NCBI GenBank assembly: GCA_005808865.1
Contig: SYKU01000352.1
Span: 1-43,318 of the forward strand
Direction of reading: 5' to 3'
DNA from: Acidobacteriota bacterium
GTDB lineage: Bacteria; Acidobacteriota; Terriglobia; Bryobacterales; Bryobacteraceae
Length of the DNA: 43,318 nt
Part shown: positions 35,668 through 42,603 of the stretch, in pieces
Layout: the number at the start of each line of letters is the position of its first letter
How positions within the stretch are numbered: position 1 is the stretch's first letter
The notes under the pieces: generated by a model
Told to the model about the DNA's origin: nothing
The model's database searches: none
What the model saw: the letters and a program-made list of their open reading frames with translations, nothing else
Made by a program: the position numbers and the translations under genes

Positions 35668-36918
35668 CTACACCCTGACCCACCGCTTCGCCTTCATCTC
35701 GAACCTGGGCAGGCTCCCCGTGGGAACCACCGTCACCGGAATCCGCAGCGCCAGCGCGTTTCGCAGCGCGGTCTCAATGCGATGCGCCAAGCCCGGATCA
35801 TCCGCATGGTCCGGGGACGGCTCGACTTCAATGTGCAAATCAGCCAGCGCGCGGTCCGTGCGCACTTCCACGCGATACTCGCCAACGCCGCCCGACGTCC
35901 GCAAAATGTTCTCGACCGCCGCTGGGTAAACGTTCACCCCACGGACCACCACCATGTCGTCGGTTCTCCCGAGAATGCCGCCCCGCAACGCGAGATCGTA
36001 GCTTCCGCATTCGCAGAGGCCTTCAGGCTCGGCCTCGACGATGTCTCCCGTGCGATAGCGAAGCAGCGGCGAACCGTGCCTGCCTAGATTCGTCAGCACC
36101 AGTTCGCCGTGCGTTCCCTGCCCGACCGGCTTGCCGTTCGCGGGGTCGATCACCTCCGCGATGTACTCCGACTCTGCTACGTGCAGCACGTCCCGCCGCT
36201 TCGGGCATCCGTAGCTAACCGGCCCCATCTCAGTCATGCCGTGGTGATCGACCACGCGCGCGCCCCATAGCTTTTCAACATGCGCGCGAGTTCCGGGAAC
36301 GCTGCCGCCCGGCTCCCCGGCGACGAGGATGGTTCGCACCTTCGAAGTGGCGAGGTCGATGCCCTCCTCAACCGCCGTCTCGGCGAGCCGGATCGCGTAG
36401 GTGGGCGTGCAGCACAGGACGGTCGCCGAAAGGTCGATCATGCCCGCGAGGCGCGCCGCACTGCGCAGGCCGCCGCCCGGGATGCAGAGGCTGCCACGGC
36501 GCGCGGCGCACTCAAACGCCGTCCAGAACCCGAGAAACGGTCCAAACGAAAAGGCGAAATAGATGCGGTCGCGCGCGGTCACACCCGCCGCATCGTATAC
36601 GCGATCCCAGCAGGTGAGCATCCAGTCCCAGCTCTCGGGCGTGTCCAGCCACCGCATCGGCTTGCCGGTTGTCGCGCTCGTCTGTGCGAAGCGCGTGTAG
36701 CGGTCAAGCGGATAGGTGAGATTCGAACCGTAGGGCGGATTCAGTTGCTGATCCTCGATGATCTCCCGCTTGGTGGTGAATGGAACGAGAAGCGCGAAGT
36801 CTTCAAGACTCGTAATGGCCGTCGATTTCAGCTTATTTGCGTAGAACGGATTATCCCGCGCTATCAGGGCGAGAAGCCCATTCAGCTTTTGAAGTTGGAT
36901 CACCCGAACGCCGCTCAC
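35668..36918 (-). CDS. PaaK-like phenylacetate-CoA ligase / AMP-binding adenylate-forming enzyme (GTG start)
   Basis: TSATTGKPMRWLDTPESWDWML, HHGMTEMGP, HGELVLTNLGRHGSPLLRYRTGDIV, LGRTDDMVVVRGVNVYPAAVENIL, PRFEMKAKRWV. Confidence 0.9.
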   Translation of the reverse strand: MSGVRVIQLQKLNGLLALIARDNPFYANKLKSTAITSLEDFALLVPFTTKREIIEDQQLNPPYGSNLTYPLDRYTRFAQTSATTGKPMRWLDTPESWDWMLTCWDRVYDAAGVTARDRIYFAFSFGPFLGFWTAFECAARRGSLCIPGGGLRSAARLAGMIDLSATVLCCTPTYAIRLAETAVEEGIDLATSKVRTILVAGEPGGSVPGTRAHVEKLWGARVVDHHGMTEMGPVSYGCPKRRDVLHVAESEYIAEVIDPANGKPVGQGTHGELVLTNLGRHGSPLLRYRTGDIVEAEPEGLCECGSYDLALRGGILGRTDDMVVVRGVNVYPAAVENILRTSGGVGEYRVEVRTDRALADLHIEVEPSPDHADDPGLAHRIETALRNALALRIPVTVVPTGSLPRFEMKAKRWVRV

Positions 36919-38183
36919 GCTACAACACCGTCCGCAATAAGTGGCTTGCCGTGCGCGAGCGGCTCCGGTACAGCCGCAAATTTCGAGGCGGCATCGAACA
37001 AAGGACCGAAATCGCGTTCGACGTTACCGATCAGGCAATCCGTAAGGTCTTCCCGCAGACCTGGATATTCGGTGAGCAGCGAGCGGAAAGAGAATCCGGG
37101 GTCGTAGAAGGCGTAGACGAGCTTCCGCATCGCCTCGATGTTCCGGCACACTTCCGCGCCGTACGCCGAAAAGCGCGCCGCCGAAACGTCACCTGCATCG
37201 AGCGCCGCATCCACGGCGTCCGCCGCGAGTTCGCCGCCGCGCAAGGCGAGGAAGAGGCCGGACGAAAAAACCGGGTCGAGAAAACTGAATGCGTCGCCCG
37301 CGAGAACCAGGCCGTCGGCTGCGCAATGCCGCGAGCGGTAGGAGAACTCGCCCGTTACCGAATGCGGCTCCGTCCTTTCACCTCGAGCCAGATGCCTTTC
37401 CACCCACGGATTGTTCTTCACCTCGCGATCGAATATGGTCCGGAGGTCGCGCCCTTCGCGGTAAAGGTAGTCCTTCTCAGCAACAACGCCTACGCTCACG
37501 ATATCGTCCGGTAGCGGAATATACCAGAACCAGCCTTTTTCCGGAATGTGGGCTATGGTTGTAGCTCCTTCATCGAGGCCCGGGTCGCGCAGTGCGCCTT
37601 TGTAATAGGTCCAGACGGCGATCTTGTTCAGCCTCGGGTCGCGCACTCTCCAGCCGTTGCGCACAATTGCGAACGCGTCGCGGCCGGTGGCGTCGATGGT
37701 CACGGGCGCGTGGAAGGCTCGCGTCTCGCCACTGTCTGAAACCGCGCTCACGCCCTTAACCGCGCCGCTCGACCAGATCAGTTCCCTGGCAGTGACCGGT
37801 TGAAGCACCTCTGCGCCCTTTTCACGGGCGTTGTCGAGAAGCATGCGGTCGAATTCGCTTCGCACTACCTGCCACGTGGTGGAGGCCTCATGATCGAAAT
37901 GTTGAAAGAAGTAAAATGGCGCGGAGATGTTCCCCGATGTGCTCGCGAACTGAACACTCAGCTTCTTCGGGAAATTCGATGCGCGCAGGCGCTCGATGAG
38001 GCCGAGCCGTTTTAGCGTGAAGTAGCAGTAAGGGATCAGCGATTCGCCGACGTGGTAGCGGGGGAATACTTCCCGCTCCAGAACAACCACGCGCCGGCCT
38101 CTTGCCGCAAGCAGCGCCGCGGCCGCGGATCCCGCCGGTCCGCCTCCAATGACGATCACGTCGTAGGGTCTGCCGTCACTCAC
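36915..38183 (-). CDS. FAD-dependent oxidoreductase, flavin-dependent-halogenase-like (GTG start)
   Basis: VIVIGGGPAGSAAAALLAARG (GxGxxG), VGESLIPY, GWFWYIPL (WxWxIP), FLDPVFSSG (FxxPxxSxG). Confidence 0.87.
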   Translation of the reverse strand: MSDGRPYDVIVIGGGPAGSAAAALLAARGRRVVVLEREVFPRYHVGESLIPYCYFTLKRLGLIERLRASNFPKKLSVQFASTSGNISAPFYFFQHFDHEASTTWQVVRSEFDRMLLDNAREKGAEVLQPVTARELIWSSGAVKGVSAVSDSGETRAFHAPVTIDATGRDAFAIVRNGWRVRDPRLNKIAVWTYYKGALRDPGLDEGATTIAHIPEKGWFWYIPLPDDIVSVGVVAEKDYLYREGRDLRTIFDREVKNNPWVERHLARGERTEPHSVTGEFSYRSRHCAADGLVLAGDAFSFLDPVFSSGLFLALRGGELAADAVDAALDAGDVSAARFSAYGAEVCRNIEAMRKLVYAFYDPGFSFRSLLTEYPGLREDLTDCLIGNVERDFGPLFDAASKFAAVPEPLAHGKPLIADGVVA

Positions 38184-39552
38184 GCGCCAGGTCTCGAGGG
38201 TCAGCAAGCGGAAATTGGCGATGTTCGGGGAGGAAGAATTCGTGTAGCAATTTGTCCACCTGCATCAAGCCAGAGCGATTCAATCGCACGGAATCCGGCC
38301 CGATGGTCAGAAAGCCCCGGTCGCGCAACCGGTTAAGCGGCGCCTCGAAACGGCGTTCGACATCCACGCCGAACTTTTCCGCGAAGTAGGCCTGGTGAAC
38401 GCGCCCCAACTTCATTTGCAGCACGAACTCGCGGATCATGCGTTCATCCGCGTCCGGCGTGAGGGCGCGGAATAGAGGCAGTTTCCCCTCGCCGAGCTTC
38501 GCGCAATAGCTTTCGAACTCGTGGTCGTTCTGGTAGTGCGTGCCGTTGACGTGAGAGAACGACGCGACGCCAAGGCCCACCATATCCGCGCCCCTCCACA
38601 ACAAGTCGCGGTAGAGAAACGGCGCGGCCGACGTGTCCTTCACCGCGGTGTAGGCGCTCGCAACCGTGTAGCCATTCTTTTCGAACTCGGCGAAAGCGTA
38701 TTCGACCCATCCGCGCTTCGTCTTCCAATTCGCAACACCCGGTGCGGCCGATTGTCCGAACACCTTCATTTCCTTGAAAATCGTGGTGTTGTGCGGGACC
38801 TCCATCTGGTAGATGGTGACGCTGTCAGGTTGCATCTCTATCGTCCGTGCAACGCAATCGCGCCAGTTCGCCTCCGTTTCGCCCACCATGCCCGCGATCA
38901 GATCGATGTTGATCTGCGGAAAGCCGATGGAGCGGGCGAACTCGTACGCGCGTCCTATTTCCTTCGATGCATGAGCGCGTCCGTTCGCCAAAAGAATTTC
39001 GTCATTGAAATTCTCGATTCCAAGGCTCAGCCGCGTCACGCCTAGCTCCCTGATCGCCTGAAGTTTGCCTTCCGTGAGTGTTCCAGGCTCGCATTCAAAG
39101 GCCACCTCCTTCGCCTCGTCCCATGGAAGCAGCGCCTTCATGCGATCGACCAGGCGGGTCAGTTGGCTGGAGGAGATGTAGGATGGCGTGCCGCCGCCAA
39201 AATAAATGAACGTCGGCTTCCGCCCGCCGATGAACGGTTTGCTGGCGTAGATCGCCAGTTCCTGAACCGCTGCATCGAGATAGCTTTCAACCTCGCTGGA
39301 GTTCTTGTCGGTGTAAACCTTGAAGTAGCAGAAGTGGCAGCGCTTGCGGCAAAAAGGGATGTGGACGTAGATTCCCAGAGGATTGCCGGGCGTCGGAGGC
39401 CGCTCAATCGCTGCATTTGCTTCGGCTACACGGTCCTTCGACCAGAAGGCATAGGGCGGGTAATTGGAAACGAAATAATTGCCGGCACGCGTCTCCTCGT
39501 CGGCCGGAATGTCCTTCGGTGGTTCGGCGGGCGAAACTGGCTCAGCAGTCAT
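38176..39552 (-). CDS. HemN/HemW-like radical SAM protein
   Basis: YVHIPFCRKRCHFCYFKVY (CxxxCxxC), FIYFGGGTPSYISSSQL, ECEPGTLTEGKL, RLSLGIENFND, INIDLIAGMVGET. Confidence 0.93.
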   Translation of the reverse strand: MTAEPVSPAEPPKDIPADEETRAGNYFVSNYPPYAFWSKDRVAEANAAIERPPTPGNPLGIYVHIPFCRKRCHFCYFKVYTDKNSSEVESYLDAAVQELAIYASKPFIGGRKPTFIYFGGGTPSYISSSQLTRLVDRMKALLPWDEAKEVAFECEPGTLTEGKLQAIRELGVTRLSLGIENFNDEILLANGRAHASKEIGRAYEFARSIGFPQINIDLIAGMVGETEANWRDCVARTIEMQPDSVTIYQMEVPHNTTIFKEMKVFGQSAAPGVANWKTKRGWVEYAFAEFEKNGYTVASAYTAVKDTSAAPFLYRDLLWRGADMVGLGVASFSHVNGTHYQNDHEFESYCAKLGEGKLPLFRALTPDADERMIREFVLQMKLGRVHQAYFAEKFGVDVERRFEAPLNRLRDRGFLTIGPDSVRLNRSGLMQVDKLLHEFFLPEHRQFPLADPRDLARE

Positions 39553-39671: not shown

Positions 39672-40754
39672 ATGCGCAACATTTTCCGCGTTCTCGGAAA
39701 GCAACACCCGTTGAGGGGAGGCATCTTGTTTTCGGCCGCAATTGTCCTGGTGGGCTTCGGCGCCGTCATCTCAGCGAACAACCTCCTTTTCCTGATTGTT
39801 GCCGCTATGCTTGCCGCCGTGCTGGCATCGGGCTTTCTGAGCCGGATGGGACTCGCCGCGCTGGAACTCGACTTCGTGGCGCCGGACCACATCTGGGCGC
39901 GGCAAACGACGAGCGCCGCGCTCCGCGTGACAAACCGCAAATGGATGCCCTCGTTTTCAATCCGCGTGTCCCCTGTGGCCTCTGGCGGCTCGACCGTCTA
40001 CTTTCCACTCGTCCCGGGCGGCTCGACGGCCGAAGAACACGTCGATCTCCTGTTCGAAAAGCGCGGCGCGTATAAGCACAACCGTTTCGTGTTTTCGACC
40101 CGTTTTCCGTTTGGTTTCGTAGAGCGCACCGCGCAGGTCGAGCTTCGGCGAGAGTTGCTTGTCTACCCCTCCGTGGAACTGCCTAGCCAGATCGAGCGCC
40201 TGTTCGAGGAGGTCGAAGGCGAACTGGAATTTCACGAGCGCGGCAGGGGCAGCGATTTCTACCGCATCCGCCCGTACGAGACGTTCGAGAGCGCGCGGCA
40301 TCTGGATTGGAAGGCGTCCGCACGAACGAGTGACCTGCAGGTACGGGAGTTCACCCGCGAACCCGAGTGGGCGGTCGAGATATATCTTGACCGCGCGGCT
40401 CCCGCCCGCCTCGAACCAGGTTTCGAGACGTGGTTCGAACGCGCCGTCGAATGCGCGGCGGGCCTCGCGTGGCGTATCTCACAGACGGGAGCGACGCTTT
40501 GGTTTCGCTCTCAAGGTTTCGAATGCCATCTCCCCGCCGAAGAGGGCATTTATACTATTCTAAAGTTTCTAGCTTTGGCCGGACCGCTTGATGGGAGGCC
40601 TTTGGACGAACCGGTAAATGCATCTCACTTCCAGGTTGTGTTTAGCGTGCGGCCGGACCGGCTCCAGGAAGCAGGCTGGACTCCGGCTCATGTTGTCGGC
40701 TTGCGCGATCTCCCCGGTTCTCTTCCTCACGCATTCGATCGCGCAGGAGACTAA
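39672..40754 (+). CDS. DUF58 domain protein with two N-terminal TM helices
   Basis: MRNIFRVLGKQHPLRGGILFSAAIVLVGFGAVISANNLLFLIVAAMLAAVLASGFLS; RGRGSDFYRIRPYETFESARHLDWKASART. Confidence 0.88.
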   Translation: MRNIFRVLGKQHPLRGGILFSAAIVLVGFGAVISANNLLFLIVAAMLAAVLASGFLSRMGLAALELDFVAPDHIWARQTTSAALRVTNRKWMPSFSIRVSPVASGGSTVYFPLVPGGSTAEEHVDLLFEKRGAYKHNRFVFSTRFPFGFVERTAQVELRRELLVYPSVELPSQIERLFEEVEGELEFHERGRGSDFYRIRPYETFESARHLDWKASARTSDLQVREFTREPEWAVEIYLDRAAPARLEPGFETWFERAVECAAGLAWRISQTGATLWFRSQGFECHLPAEEGIYTILKFLALAGPLDGRPLDEPVNASHFQVVFSVRPDRLQEAGWTPAHVVGLRDLPGSLPHAFDRAGD

Positions 40755-42603
40755 ATCGGCGCAGCCCCCTGCGCTTGAGCCGGTCCGAACCACAATCACT
40801 GTGACCGAGAGCATCGCGACCGAGGCTCCCGCCTCCGTGTCGATCGTCGGCCGTCCGGAACTGCAAAAGATCCCGGGAGTCAATCTGGACGACCGGCTGC
40901 GCTCCGTTCCCGGATTCAGCCTTTTTCGCCGGACATCAAGTCTGGTGGCGCACCCGACTACCCAAGGCGTATCACTCAGGGGCATGGGCTCGTCCGGCGC
41001 AAGCCGCAGTCTAGTGCTTTGGGACGGCCTTCCAGTCAACGATCCTTTCGGTGGATGGGCGTACTGGACGCGCATTCCTCCCGACGATGTGGAGCGCGTC
41101 GAGGTTTCCCGTGGCGCCTCCACCAGCGTGTTCGGAGACCGGGCCATGTCCGGCGCCATCGCGCTTTTCTCGCGCGAGCCCGAACGGCATAGATTGAATG
41201 GACGCTTCGAAGCAGGTAACCGGAATTCCCAGGATGTCTCCGCCGGTTTCTCCGAGATCTGGGGCCGCTTCGGAATTTCAGGGCAAGGACGCGCTTATCA
41301 GACGGACGGTTATTACATCGTGCCCGCGAACCGCCGCGGCCGTATCGACACGCTAGCCGGAGTGCGATTTGTGACTTCCGTGGCGCGGCTCGACTACTTC
41401 GGCGGCCCCAATCGTCTGTTCCTGAAGACGGATGTCCTGTCCGAGACCCGCCAGAACGGAACCCCGATTCAGAACAATTCCACCGGCCTTGGAAATATCG
41501 CGCTGCGCTATCAGCGGCAGACGGGGAACGATTCGGTTTCCTTCGCCGGCTTTCACACGCGCGAAGCGTTTCGCAGCGGCTTTGCGACTATCGCGGCCGA
41601 CCGCAATTCGGAGCGCGTCAACTTTTTCCAAAGAGTCCCGTCGGAGGCCGTCGGCGTGACGGGATTGTGGCAACATCGCGCCGGGCGCTTCAATACGGCG
41701 GCGGGGGGCGATGCGCTTCGTGTGGAAGGCTACAGCACGGACGTGTTTCCCACGCAGCGCGTTGTGGGCGGCGGTCCGCTCCTTCAGCACGGAGTATTCG
41801 GGCAGGCCGATTTCAAGCTCGGGCCGGCGCGCTTCTTTGCAGGCGGGCGGCATCAGTTCACCGGGCAGGACCGTACTTTTTTCAGTCCCAGCACGGGCTT
41901 CGTCGTGGGACGCGGCCGCCTGCGCGGAAGGGGATCCGTCTACCGCAGCTTCAGAGCGCCCACGCTCAACGAACTGTTTCGCAACTTCCGTGCGGGCAAC
42001 GCGGAGACGCGCGCGAATCCGGCCCTGAAGCCCGAGACGGTGTTCGGCTCCGAGGTTGGCGCGGACTGGGTGGGCGAATCAACGCGGGTTCGAGTGACGG
42101 GATTCCGAAGTTCGATCGGCGACATTATCACCAACGTGACTCTCCTCTCGACGCCGGCGCAGATCATCCGGCAGCGCAGAAACGCCGCCTCCGCCCTCAA
42201 CCGTGGAATTGAGACCGAGATCCAGCAGCGGTGGCGCAATTTCCGGTTCGACGCGGGATATCTGTTCGTCGATTCGCGCGTCTCCACGCGCCAGCGCATA
42301 CCTCAGATTCCGAAACATCAGGGGTCCGGACAGCTTGCCTACGAGCGCAACGGGACGCTCGCGTCGGCCGGTGTCCGCGGCTTCGCGGCTCAGTTCGAGG
42401 AAGACCTCAACCAGAACAGACTCCCCGGTTTCGCGACTGTTCAGGCGGTTCTGCAGCAGCGCCTCGCAAAGGGTTTTTCCGCGGTCGCCGCCTTTGAGAA
42501 TCTGCTTGACCGCGAATACCTCACGGGTAAGACGGCCGCTACGATCGCCATCGGCGCACCAAGGCTGTGGCGCCTCGGCCTGCGGTGGGATGGGAGGAAC
42601 TGA
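40690..42603 (+). CDS. TonB-dependent receptor (BtuB/CirA-like)
   Basis: TITVTESIATEAPASVSIVGRPELQKIPGVNLDDRLRSVPGFSLFRRTSS...GVSLRGMGSSGASRSLVLWDGLPVNDPFGGWAYWTRIPPDDVERVEVSRGASTSVFGDRAMSGAI. Confidence 0.93.
   Translation: MLSACAISPVLFLTHSIAQETKSAQPPALEPVRTTITVTESIATEAPASVSIVGRPELQKIPGVNLDDRLRSVPGFSLFRRTSSLVAHPTTQGVSLRGMGSSGASRSLVLWDGLPVNDPFGGWAYWTRIPPDDVERVEVSRGASTSVFGDRAMSGAIALFSREPERHRLNGRFEAGNRNSQDVSAGFSEIWGRFGISGQGRAYQTDGYYIVPANRRGRIDTLAGVRFVTSVARLDYFGGPNRLFLKTDVLSETRQNGTPIQNNSTGLGNIALRYQRQTGNDSVSFAGFHTREAFRSGFATIAADRNSERVNFFQRVPSEAVGVTGLWQHRAGRFNTAAGGDALRVEGYSTDVFPTQRVVGGGPLLQHGVFGQADFKLGPARFFAGGRHQFTGQDRTFFSPSTGFVVGRGRLRGRGSVYRSFRAPTLNELFRNFRAGNAETRANPALKPETVFGSEVGADWVGESTRVRVTGFRSSIGDIITNVTLLSTPAQIIRQRRNAASALNRGIETEIQQRWRNFRFDAGYLFVDSRVSTRQRIPQIPKHQGSGQLAYERNGTLASAGVRGFAAQFEEDLNQNRLPGFATVQAVLQQRLAKGFSAVAAFENLLDREYLTGKTAATIAIGAPRLWRLGLRWDGRN

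Follow-up and report, generated by a model that had tools for sequence, protein, structure and literature searches.

A conserved gene trio for a HemN-like radical SAM protein, a probable flavin-dependent halogenase and a PaaK-type acid ligase

Three tightly coupled genes in an acidobacterial genome raise the question of what a HemN-like radical S-adenosylmethionine (SAM) protein, a halogenase-like flavoprotein and a PaaK-type acid ligase may do together. The genes (here rSAM, FLAV and LIG) lie at positions 35668-39552 of the window, by which we mean the whole 43,318-nt contig SYKU01000352.1 of a Bryobacteraceae genome (assembly GCA_005808865.1). Our best reading, to which we assign a probability of roughly 0.5, is that they are a reduced copy of a conserved module, an orphan, carrier-free pathway in which an acid of the 4-hydroxybenzoate type is activated and modified, probably by halogenation through FLAV and by a radical change at carbon through rSAM. 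That the three work together as a functional unit we hold to be far more probable than these even odds.

Structure of the locus

The three genes and their two junctions are as follows.

38176-39552, reverse strand: rSAM, HemN-like radical SAM protein, first gene of the trio, 458 aa, ATG start
36915-38183, reverse strand: FLAV, halogenase-like flavin adenine dinucleotide (FAD) protein, 422 aa, GTG start
35668-36918, reverse strand: LIG, PaaK-type acid ligase forming adenosine monophosphate (AMP), 416 aa, GTG start
38176-38183, reverse strand: 8-nt overlap of the rSAM stop and the FLAV GTG start, GTGAGTGA, read from the sequence
36915-36918, reverse strand: 4-nt overlap of the FLAV stop and the LIG start, GTGA, read from the sequence

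Open reading frames, starts and both overlaps were found as the first-pass annotation of this DNA had described them, and the FLAV frame is open further upstream, to a TTG at 38207. The 8-nt overlap is present in the window but is a local feature only, since 17 nt separate the end of rSAM from FLAV in the closest relative (93-94% identity).

Conservation and co-inheritance of the trio

A scan of GTDB genomes for FLAV gave 276 confirmed relatives, of which the best 80 (57-93% identity) were kept; their sources are Acidobacteriota, Planctomycetota, Verrucomicrobiota, Armatimonadota, Calditrichota, Omnitrophota and a few bins with other labels, and the linkage counts describe this near clade. Directly upstream of FLAV and on the same strand, rSAM was present in 67 of the 73 loci with enough flank, 48 of 69 loci had LIG no more than 5 kb downstream, and both neighbours flanked FLAV in 43 of 66. 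This gene order is far beyond chance and is kept in several phyla, so that the neighbourhood analysis bears out the grouping of the three genes made in the first pass. Genomes without an adjacent rSAM mostly carry it elsewhere, 35 of 38 near-clade genomes have LIG (E<=1e-100), and the FLAV and rSAM distance matrices correlate with r=0.75, against a permutation maximum of 0.16.

Beyond direct linkage, co-inheritance was examined in two groups. FLAV-type genes occur in 44 of the 297 Acidobacteriota genomes sampled and, at E<=1e-120, in 156 of the 199 Pirellulaceae genomes sampled, where they mostly lie far from rSAM. Among Acidobacteriota, rSAM was found in all 27 FLAV-positive genomes and in none of the 20 FLAV-negative ones, which were all drawn from the class or family of the window genome. 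Among Pirellulaceae, it was found at more than 590 bits in 18 of 18 FLAV-positive genomes tested (HemN/HemW-type paralogues reached at most 224 bits in that search). For 38 Pirellulaceae genomes we obtained association counts of 30/1/1/6 for rSAM with the UbiC-like gene introduced below (p=2e-5), 30/1/2/5 for rSAM with LIG (p=2e-4) and 31/0/1/6 for the UbiC-like gene with LIG (p=3e-6), these p-values ignoring shared ancestry.

The flavoprotein as a probable halogenase

Four features of FLAV bear on its chemistry; invariance refers, except for the first, to an alignment of 134 sequences, namely the window protein and 133 others down to ~40% identity, unlinked Pirellulaceae paralogues included.

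38130-38147, reverse strand: GxGxxG FAD-binding motif, FLAV residues 13-18; G13, G15 and G18 invariant in a further family alignment
37962-37964, reverse strand: Lys74, at the halogenase catalytic-lysine position; invariant (134/134)
37515-37532, reverse strand: WxWxIP motif (GWFWYIP), W218-P223; W218, W220 and P223 invariant, I222 in all but one
37257-37283, reverse strand: FxxPxxSxG halide-site motif (FLDPVFSSG), F301-G309; D303, P304, S307 and G309 invariant

All three halogenase signatures that had been read in this protein are thus confirmed, and the KK pair placed at about residues 73-74 is found at exactly those residues of the GTG-started protein. Lys74 aligns with the lysine of the NFPKK motif of PltA, and the equivalent K74 of the halogenase RadH is essential for halogenation (PMC10377541). 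Pfam assigns FLAV to Trp_halogenase (101.7 bits), and its best sequence matches in the PDB are FasV, PltA, Mpy16, ChlB4 and CndH.

The fold tells the same story. An AlphaFold2 (AF2) model with a predicted local distance difference test score (pLDDT) of 91.9 gave, in Foldseek, FasV (the name that Foldseek attaches to PDB 8ZOP), PltA, Bmp2, ChlB4, RadH and CndH as best matches, followed by 3nix, CmlS, CtcP and PltM. The structural comparison with CndH, CmlS and geranylgeranyl reductases that had been proposed in the first pass therefore favours the halogenases, a geranylgeranyl reductase-like structure coming only at rank 47. In a tree with long branches to the references, from which 3nix, RadH, CmlS and QhpG were left out, the FLAV proteins cluster together with moderate support (83/87), next to five characterised halogenases, and E. 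coli FixC (geranylgeranyl reductase superfamily), UbiH, UbiI and UbiF fall outside this grouping; FLAV is accordingly not placed in a reductase or hydroxylase clade. We rejected FLAV as a geranylgeranyl reductase on the position of FixC, on the rank of the reductase structure and on a superfamily score of 122 bits, below the cut-off of 158.8.

A hydroxylase is harder to set aside. The same module could act on an aromatic substrate with FLAV as a monooxygenase that hydroxylates the ring, for example to a catechol or quinol then methylated by rSAM. The fold is common to flavoprotein monooxygenases, the uncharacterised flavoprotein 3nix is also close to FLAV, and QhpG, whose fold resembles that of CmlS, hydroxylates Trp (PMC7876137); against the QhpG model FLAV reaches 135 bits. 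Full clusters are, moreover, frequent in organisms without a known halogenated product. Against this stand the invariance of Lys74, WxWxIP and DPxFSSG in 134 sequences, the lysine being the residue essential in RadH, and the fact that halogenases are the best matches of FLAV in both sequence and fold, so that we regard hydroxylation as a serious but unlikely alternative. On its motifs and modelled structure FLAV is probably a halogenase of the variant-B type; because QhpG hydroxylates with a related fold, halogenation is probable and not proven.

The radical SAM protein

One motif identifies rSAM as a radical SAM protein with a family-specific residue.

39328-39351, reverse strand: CxxxCxxC 4Fe-4S motif (C68, C72, C75) followed by Tyr76; invariant in 44 family members

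Pfam reports Radical_SAM (73 bits) and HemN_C (26 bits). A rival reading is that rSAM is simply HemN or HemW and that the trio is related to heme. Its scores with the two models, 185.6 and 166.4 bits, could be taken that way, but they lie below the respective cut-offs of 324.95 and 205.4 bits, and rSAM is likewise under the NCBIfam equivalog cut-offs for HutW, HemZ and STM4012. The family forms a single clade (support 100/98) apart from HemN, HemW and the separate HemW-like gene that the window genome carries elsewhere; HemN/HemW-type paralogues have N, G, D or S at the position of Y76; and Glu180, present in 41 of 44 members, replaces a conserved Gln of HemN and HemW. A heme role is therefore extremely improbable. 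We rejected rSAM as HemN or HemW on the equivalog cut-offs and the separate clade, in agreement with the first-pass view of it as an enzyme outside heme biosynthesis.

As to its reaction, strong matches in the PDB are limited to NocN and HemN. E153, equivalent to HemN E145, is invariant, and the positions aligned to HemN F310, Q311 and I329 differ; we take these four HemN residues to be those of the second SAM site. HemN-like enzymes that methylate aromatic carbon exist, as exemplified by CoeI (PMC9714029), and for this reason C-methylation is our default guess by analogy for rSAM, which may be a C-methylase or another radical modifier. A sister branch of the family that has diverged further is represented by three loci, two of them with Gln in place of Glu180.

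The ligase and the fuller clusters

LIG carries the Pfam domains AMP-binding and AMP-binding_C_2, its best PDB matches are 2-hydroxyisobutyryl-coenzyme A (CoA) synthetase and phenylacetate-CoA ligases, and the adenylation motifs and the C-terminal Lys motif are conserved in the family alignment. With 181 bits against a cut-off of 646 it is not the phenylacetate-specific PaaK of the TIGR02155 equivalog. By its sequence LIG is an intact PaaK-type ligase and should be active.

The likely nature of the acid comes from clusters larger than that of the window. The fullest gene order runs from an SSS symporter through a LuxE-like AMP ligase, an aldehyde dehydrogenase (ALDH), an iron-type alcohol dehydrogenase (Fe-ADH) and a PQQ/BamB-like propeller to rSAM, and continues with a UbiC-like protein, FLAV, a GT4 glycosyltransferase, a 4HBT thioesterase, a small membrane protein, LIG, an ABC ATPase and an FtsX permease. 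In the near clade the UbiC-like gene lies between rSAM and FLAV in 38 of 73 loci and the 4HBT gene accompanies FLAV in 42 of 69, and in distant Acidobacteriota (~45% identity) FLAV is surrounded by the same gene set. Since this set recurs around FLAV in near and distant loci, the window trio is a reduced version of the fuller cluster, without the UbiC-like gene. The conserved cluster genes include no recognised ketosynthase, which makes a small aromatic acid activated as a CoA or AMP ester likelier than a polyketide.

The UbiC-like protein has no Pfam match at the gathering threshold. Its AF2 model (pLDDT 91.7) is closest in Foldseek to DUF98/AF1396 (template-modelling (TM) score 0.62 on the query and 0.76 on the target), with UTRA domains and then UbiC lower; alignment of profiles with hhalign gave E=2.2e-5 against E. 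coli UbiC, and a profile search of the PDB gave a weak match to DUF98. R85 and E183, which we take to be the catalytic Arg and Glu, are invariant in the family alignment; R85 aligns with the Arg of the LREI of UbiC, and the Glu is aligned with DUF98 only. These proteins thus appear, from sequence and modelled fold, to be a new subfamily of the chorismate lyase type and putative lyases, and for clusters that carry the gene this homology suggests a pathway starting from 4-hydroxybenzoate.

A rival reading with a lipid product starts from planctomycetal chemistry. Alichondrichlorin, a planctomycetal compound for which no genes are known, is a chlorinated fatty acid esterified with 4-hydroxybenzoate; Rhodopirellula baltica makes a chlorinated fatty acid, and 3,5-dibromo-p-anisic acid is a further product of planctomycetes (PMC12078418). 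LIG or the LuxE-like protein could then activate a fatty acid, FLAV add chlorine or an epoxide, and 4-hydroxybenzoate serve as the ester partner, in keeping with the fatty-acid reduction that the LuxE-like, ALDH and Fe-ADH genes would allow and with the spread of FLAV-type genes through Pirellulaceae, where UbiC-like, LIG and rSAM co-occur. However, known variant-B halogenases use activated, electron-rich substrates, and LIG resembles ligases of aryl and small acids; we find the module as a maker of halogenated lipids improbable. Quite improbable, too, is a catabolic or detoxification pathway, in which aromatic acids or alcohols would be imported by the SSS symporter, oxidised by the alcohol and aldehyde dehydrogenases, activated by LIG and the LuxE-like protein, and modified for breakdown. 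The symporter and dehydrogenase genes, together with a MarR regulator, do occur in or near some loci, but the chorismate lyase-type gene points to synthesis, the ABC/FtsX pair and the glycosyltransferase are typical of product export, and the conserved neighbours include no recognised gene for ring cleavage.

Proposed pathway

In the pathway that we favour, the acid would be adenylated by LIG and converted to the CoA (or AMP) ester, FLAV would halogenate the activated phenolic ring with reduced FAD from an unlinked reductase, and rSAM would modify the molecule by radical chemistry, with methylation at an sp2 carbon as the likeliest outcome. In the fuller clusters the UbiC-like chorismate lyase would supply 4-hydroxybenzoate, the 4HBT-type thioesterase would release the product, the LuxE-like, ALDH and Fe-ADH proteins could reduce the carboxyl group, GT4 may glycosylate, and the ABC/FtsX pair may export. 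With only the three core enzymes left in the window lineage, the acid would be made otherwise or scavenged. Substrate, order of steps, product and the choice of halogenation over hydroxylation and of methylation are what we infer from the genes; their structure and families, the conserved active-site residues, the linkage and the co-inheritance are directly observed.

Several points weigh against this reading. Next to the window trio there is neither a carrier protein, as the first-pass annotation had already remarked of an acyl carrier protein (ACP), nor a flavin reductase. No UbiC-like gene was found in the window genome (about 87% complete) or in eight trio-only relatives, and it is absent from 16 of 26 FLAV-positive Acidobacteriota tested, so that for the window trio 4-hydroxybenzoate is an extrapolation. 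FLAV forms a clade beside the characterised halogenases, not within them, and Lys74 and the motifs are necessary for halogenation and no proof of it. The narrow choice of FLAV-negative Acidobacteriota and the shared ancestry behind the p-values count here as well, and rSAM is still present in 13 of 20 Pirellulaceae without a strong FLAV match, where either the FLAV cut-off or a FLAV-independent role of rSAM matters. The earlier idea that the trio activates an acid, oxidises or halogenates it and modifies it by radical chemistry nevertheless fits, and is sharpened by the UbiC-like partner; halogenation, cyclopropanation and an ACP-bound substrate are the parts that are unsupported or unproven.

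Other genes at and near the loci

The genes flanking the window trio are unrelated by annotation, namely DUF58 and a TonB receptor upstream and DUF2064 and a cytochrome c downstream, and defence-system models gave no match. We rejected the TonB receptor (40618-42603, ~1 kb from the trio) as part of the module; it has ~26% identity to the cluster-linked TonB receptors, and no close relative of it lies near the other near-clade trios. The window genome's only 4HBT hit is a 59-bit match on another contig, probably a generic YbgC-type thioesterase.

A siderophore-type TonB receptor adjoins FLAV at five loci from several Acidobacteriota families, mostly between rSAM and FLAV; such receptors beside FLAV in distant Acidobacteriota are 44-51% identical between loci, hinting at a metal-related or receptor-imported product in that branch. 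In Pirellulaceae, a GcvH-like lipoyl-type carrier protein is encoded beside rSAM in most loci examined (ten), followed by a 4Fe-4S protein in four of these, and a divergent gene for a fused 3-dehydroquinase/shikimate dehydrogenase adjoins the PQQ-rSAM genes in six. Eight Pirellulaceae loci have a MarR-type regulator next to FLAV, and a similar protein is encoded near FLAV in one armatimonad locus.

Relation to known systems

The module is apparently undescribed, its enzymes being new subfamilies of known families; no published description was found in a literature search that covered few subscription journals. A bolder and less likely reading is that rSAM, FLAV, LIG and the UbiC-like protein together form a pathway, common in Planctomycetota and found in part of the Acidobacteriota and Verrucomicrobiota, to a halogenated, C-modified 4-hydroxybenzoate metabolite; halogenated lipids, alichondrichlorin for one, may be among its products, and halogenation would take place on a substrate bound to CoA and not to a carrier protein. 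If halogenation by FLAV is real, environmental bacteria would make a common metabolite, possibly a natural source of organohalogens, that has been overlooked because its genes lack the hallmarks of polyketide synthases (PKS) and nonribosomal peptide synthetases (NRPS). The module is also a concrete gene candidate for the planctomycetal 4-hydroxybenzoate and chlorinated products that lack known genes. Its proposed product would share with those compounds a 4-hydroxybenzoate-type skeleton and a halogen, within one phylum, and the link is suggestive only.

Each member of the module resembles a known family and departs from it. LIG has the domain set and the adenylation and C-terminal Lys motifs of the PaaK family (phenylacetate-CoA ligase, 2-hydroxyisobutyryl-CoA synthetase, AjiA1), yet falls far under the PaaK equivalog cut-off. 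The UbiC-like protein has the predicted fold of the UbiC/DUF98 chorismate lyases and the REVxL and LYGRRN motifs in common with UbiC; unlike them it goes without a Pfam match at the gathering threshold, and UTRA ligand-binding domains have the same fold. With NocN, NosN, CoeI, C10P and TbtI, HemN-like enzymes of natural-product pathways, rSAM shares Radical_SAM, HemN_C and CxxxCxxC, but it is set apart by its own clade, by Y76 and in most members Glu180 for Gln, and by FLAV, LIG and UbiC-like partners in place of PKS genes or those for ribosomally synthesized and post-translationally modified peptides. FLAV, finally, is like the variant-B halogenases (FasV, PltA, Bmp2, Mpy16, ChlB4, CndH) in its fold (TM about 0.8-0.9), in GxGxxG, WxWxIP, FxxPxxSxG and the catalytic-type Lys, and in a C-terminus too short to cover the active site, whereas it differs in its ~30% identity, its separate clade, the lack of adjacent carrier or polyketide/NRPS genes, and a HemN-like radical SAM protein as its constant partner. 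This strict pairing of a flavoprotein with a radical SAM protein is new and merits study.

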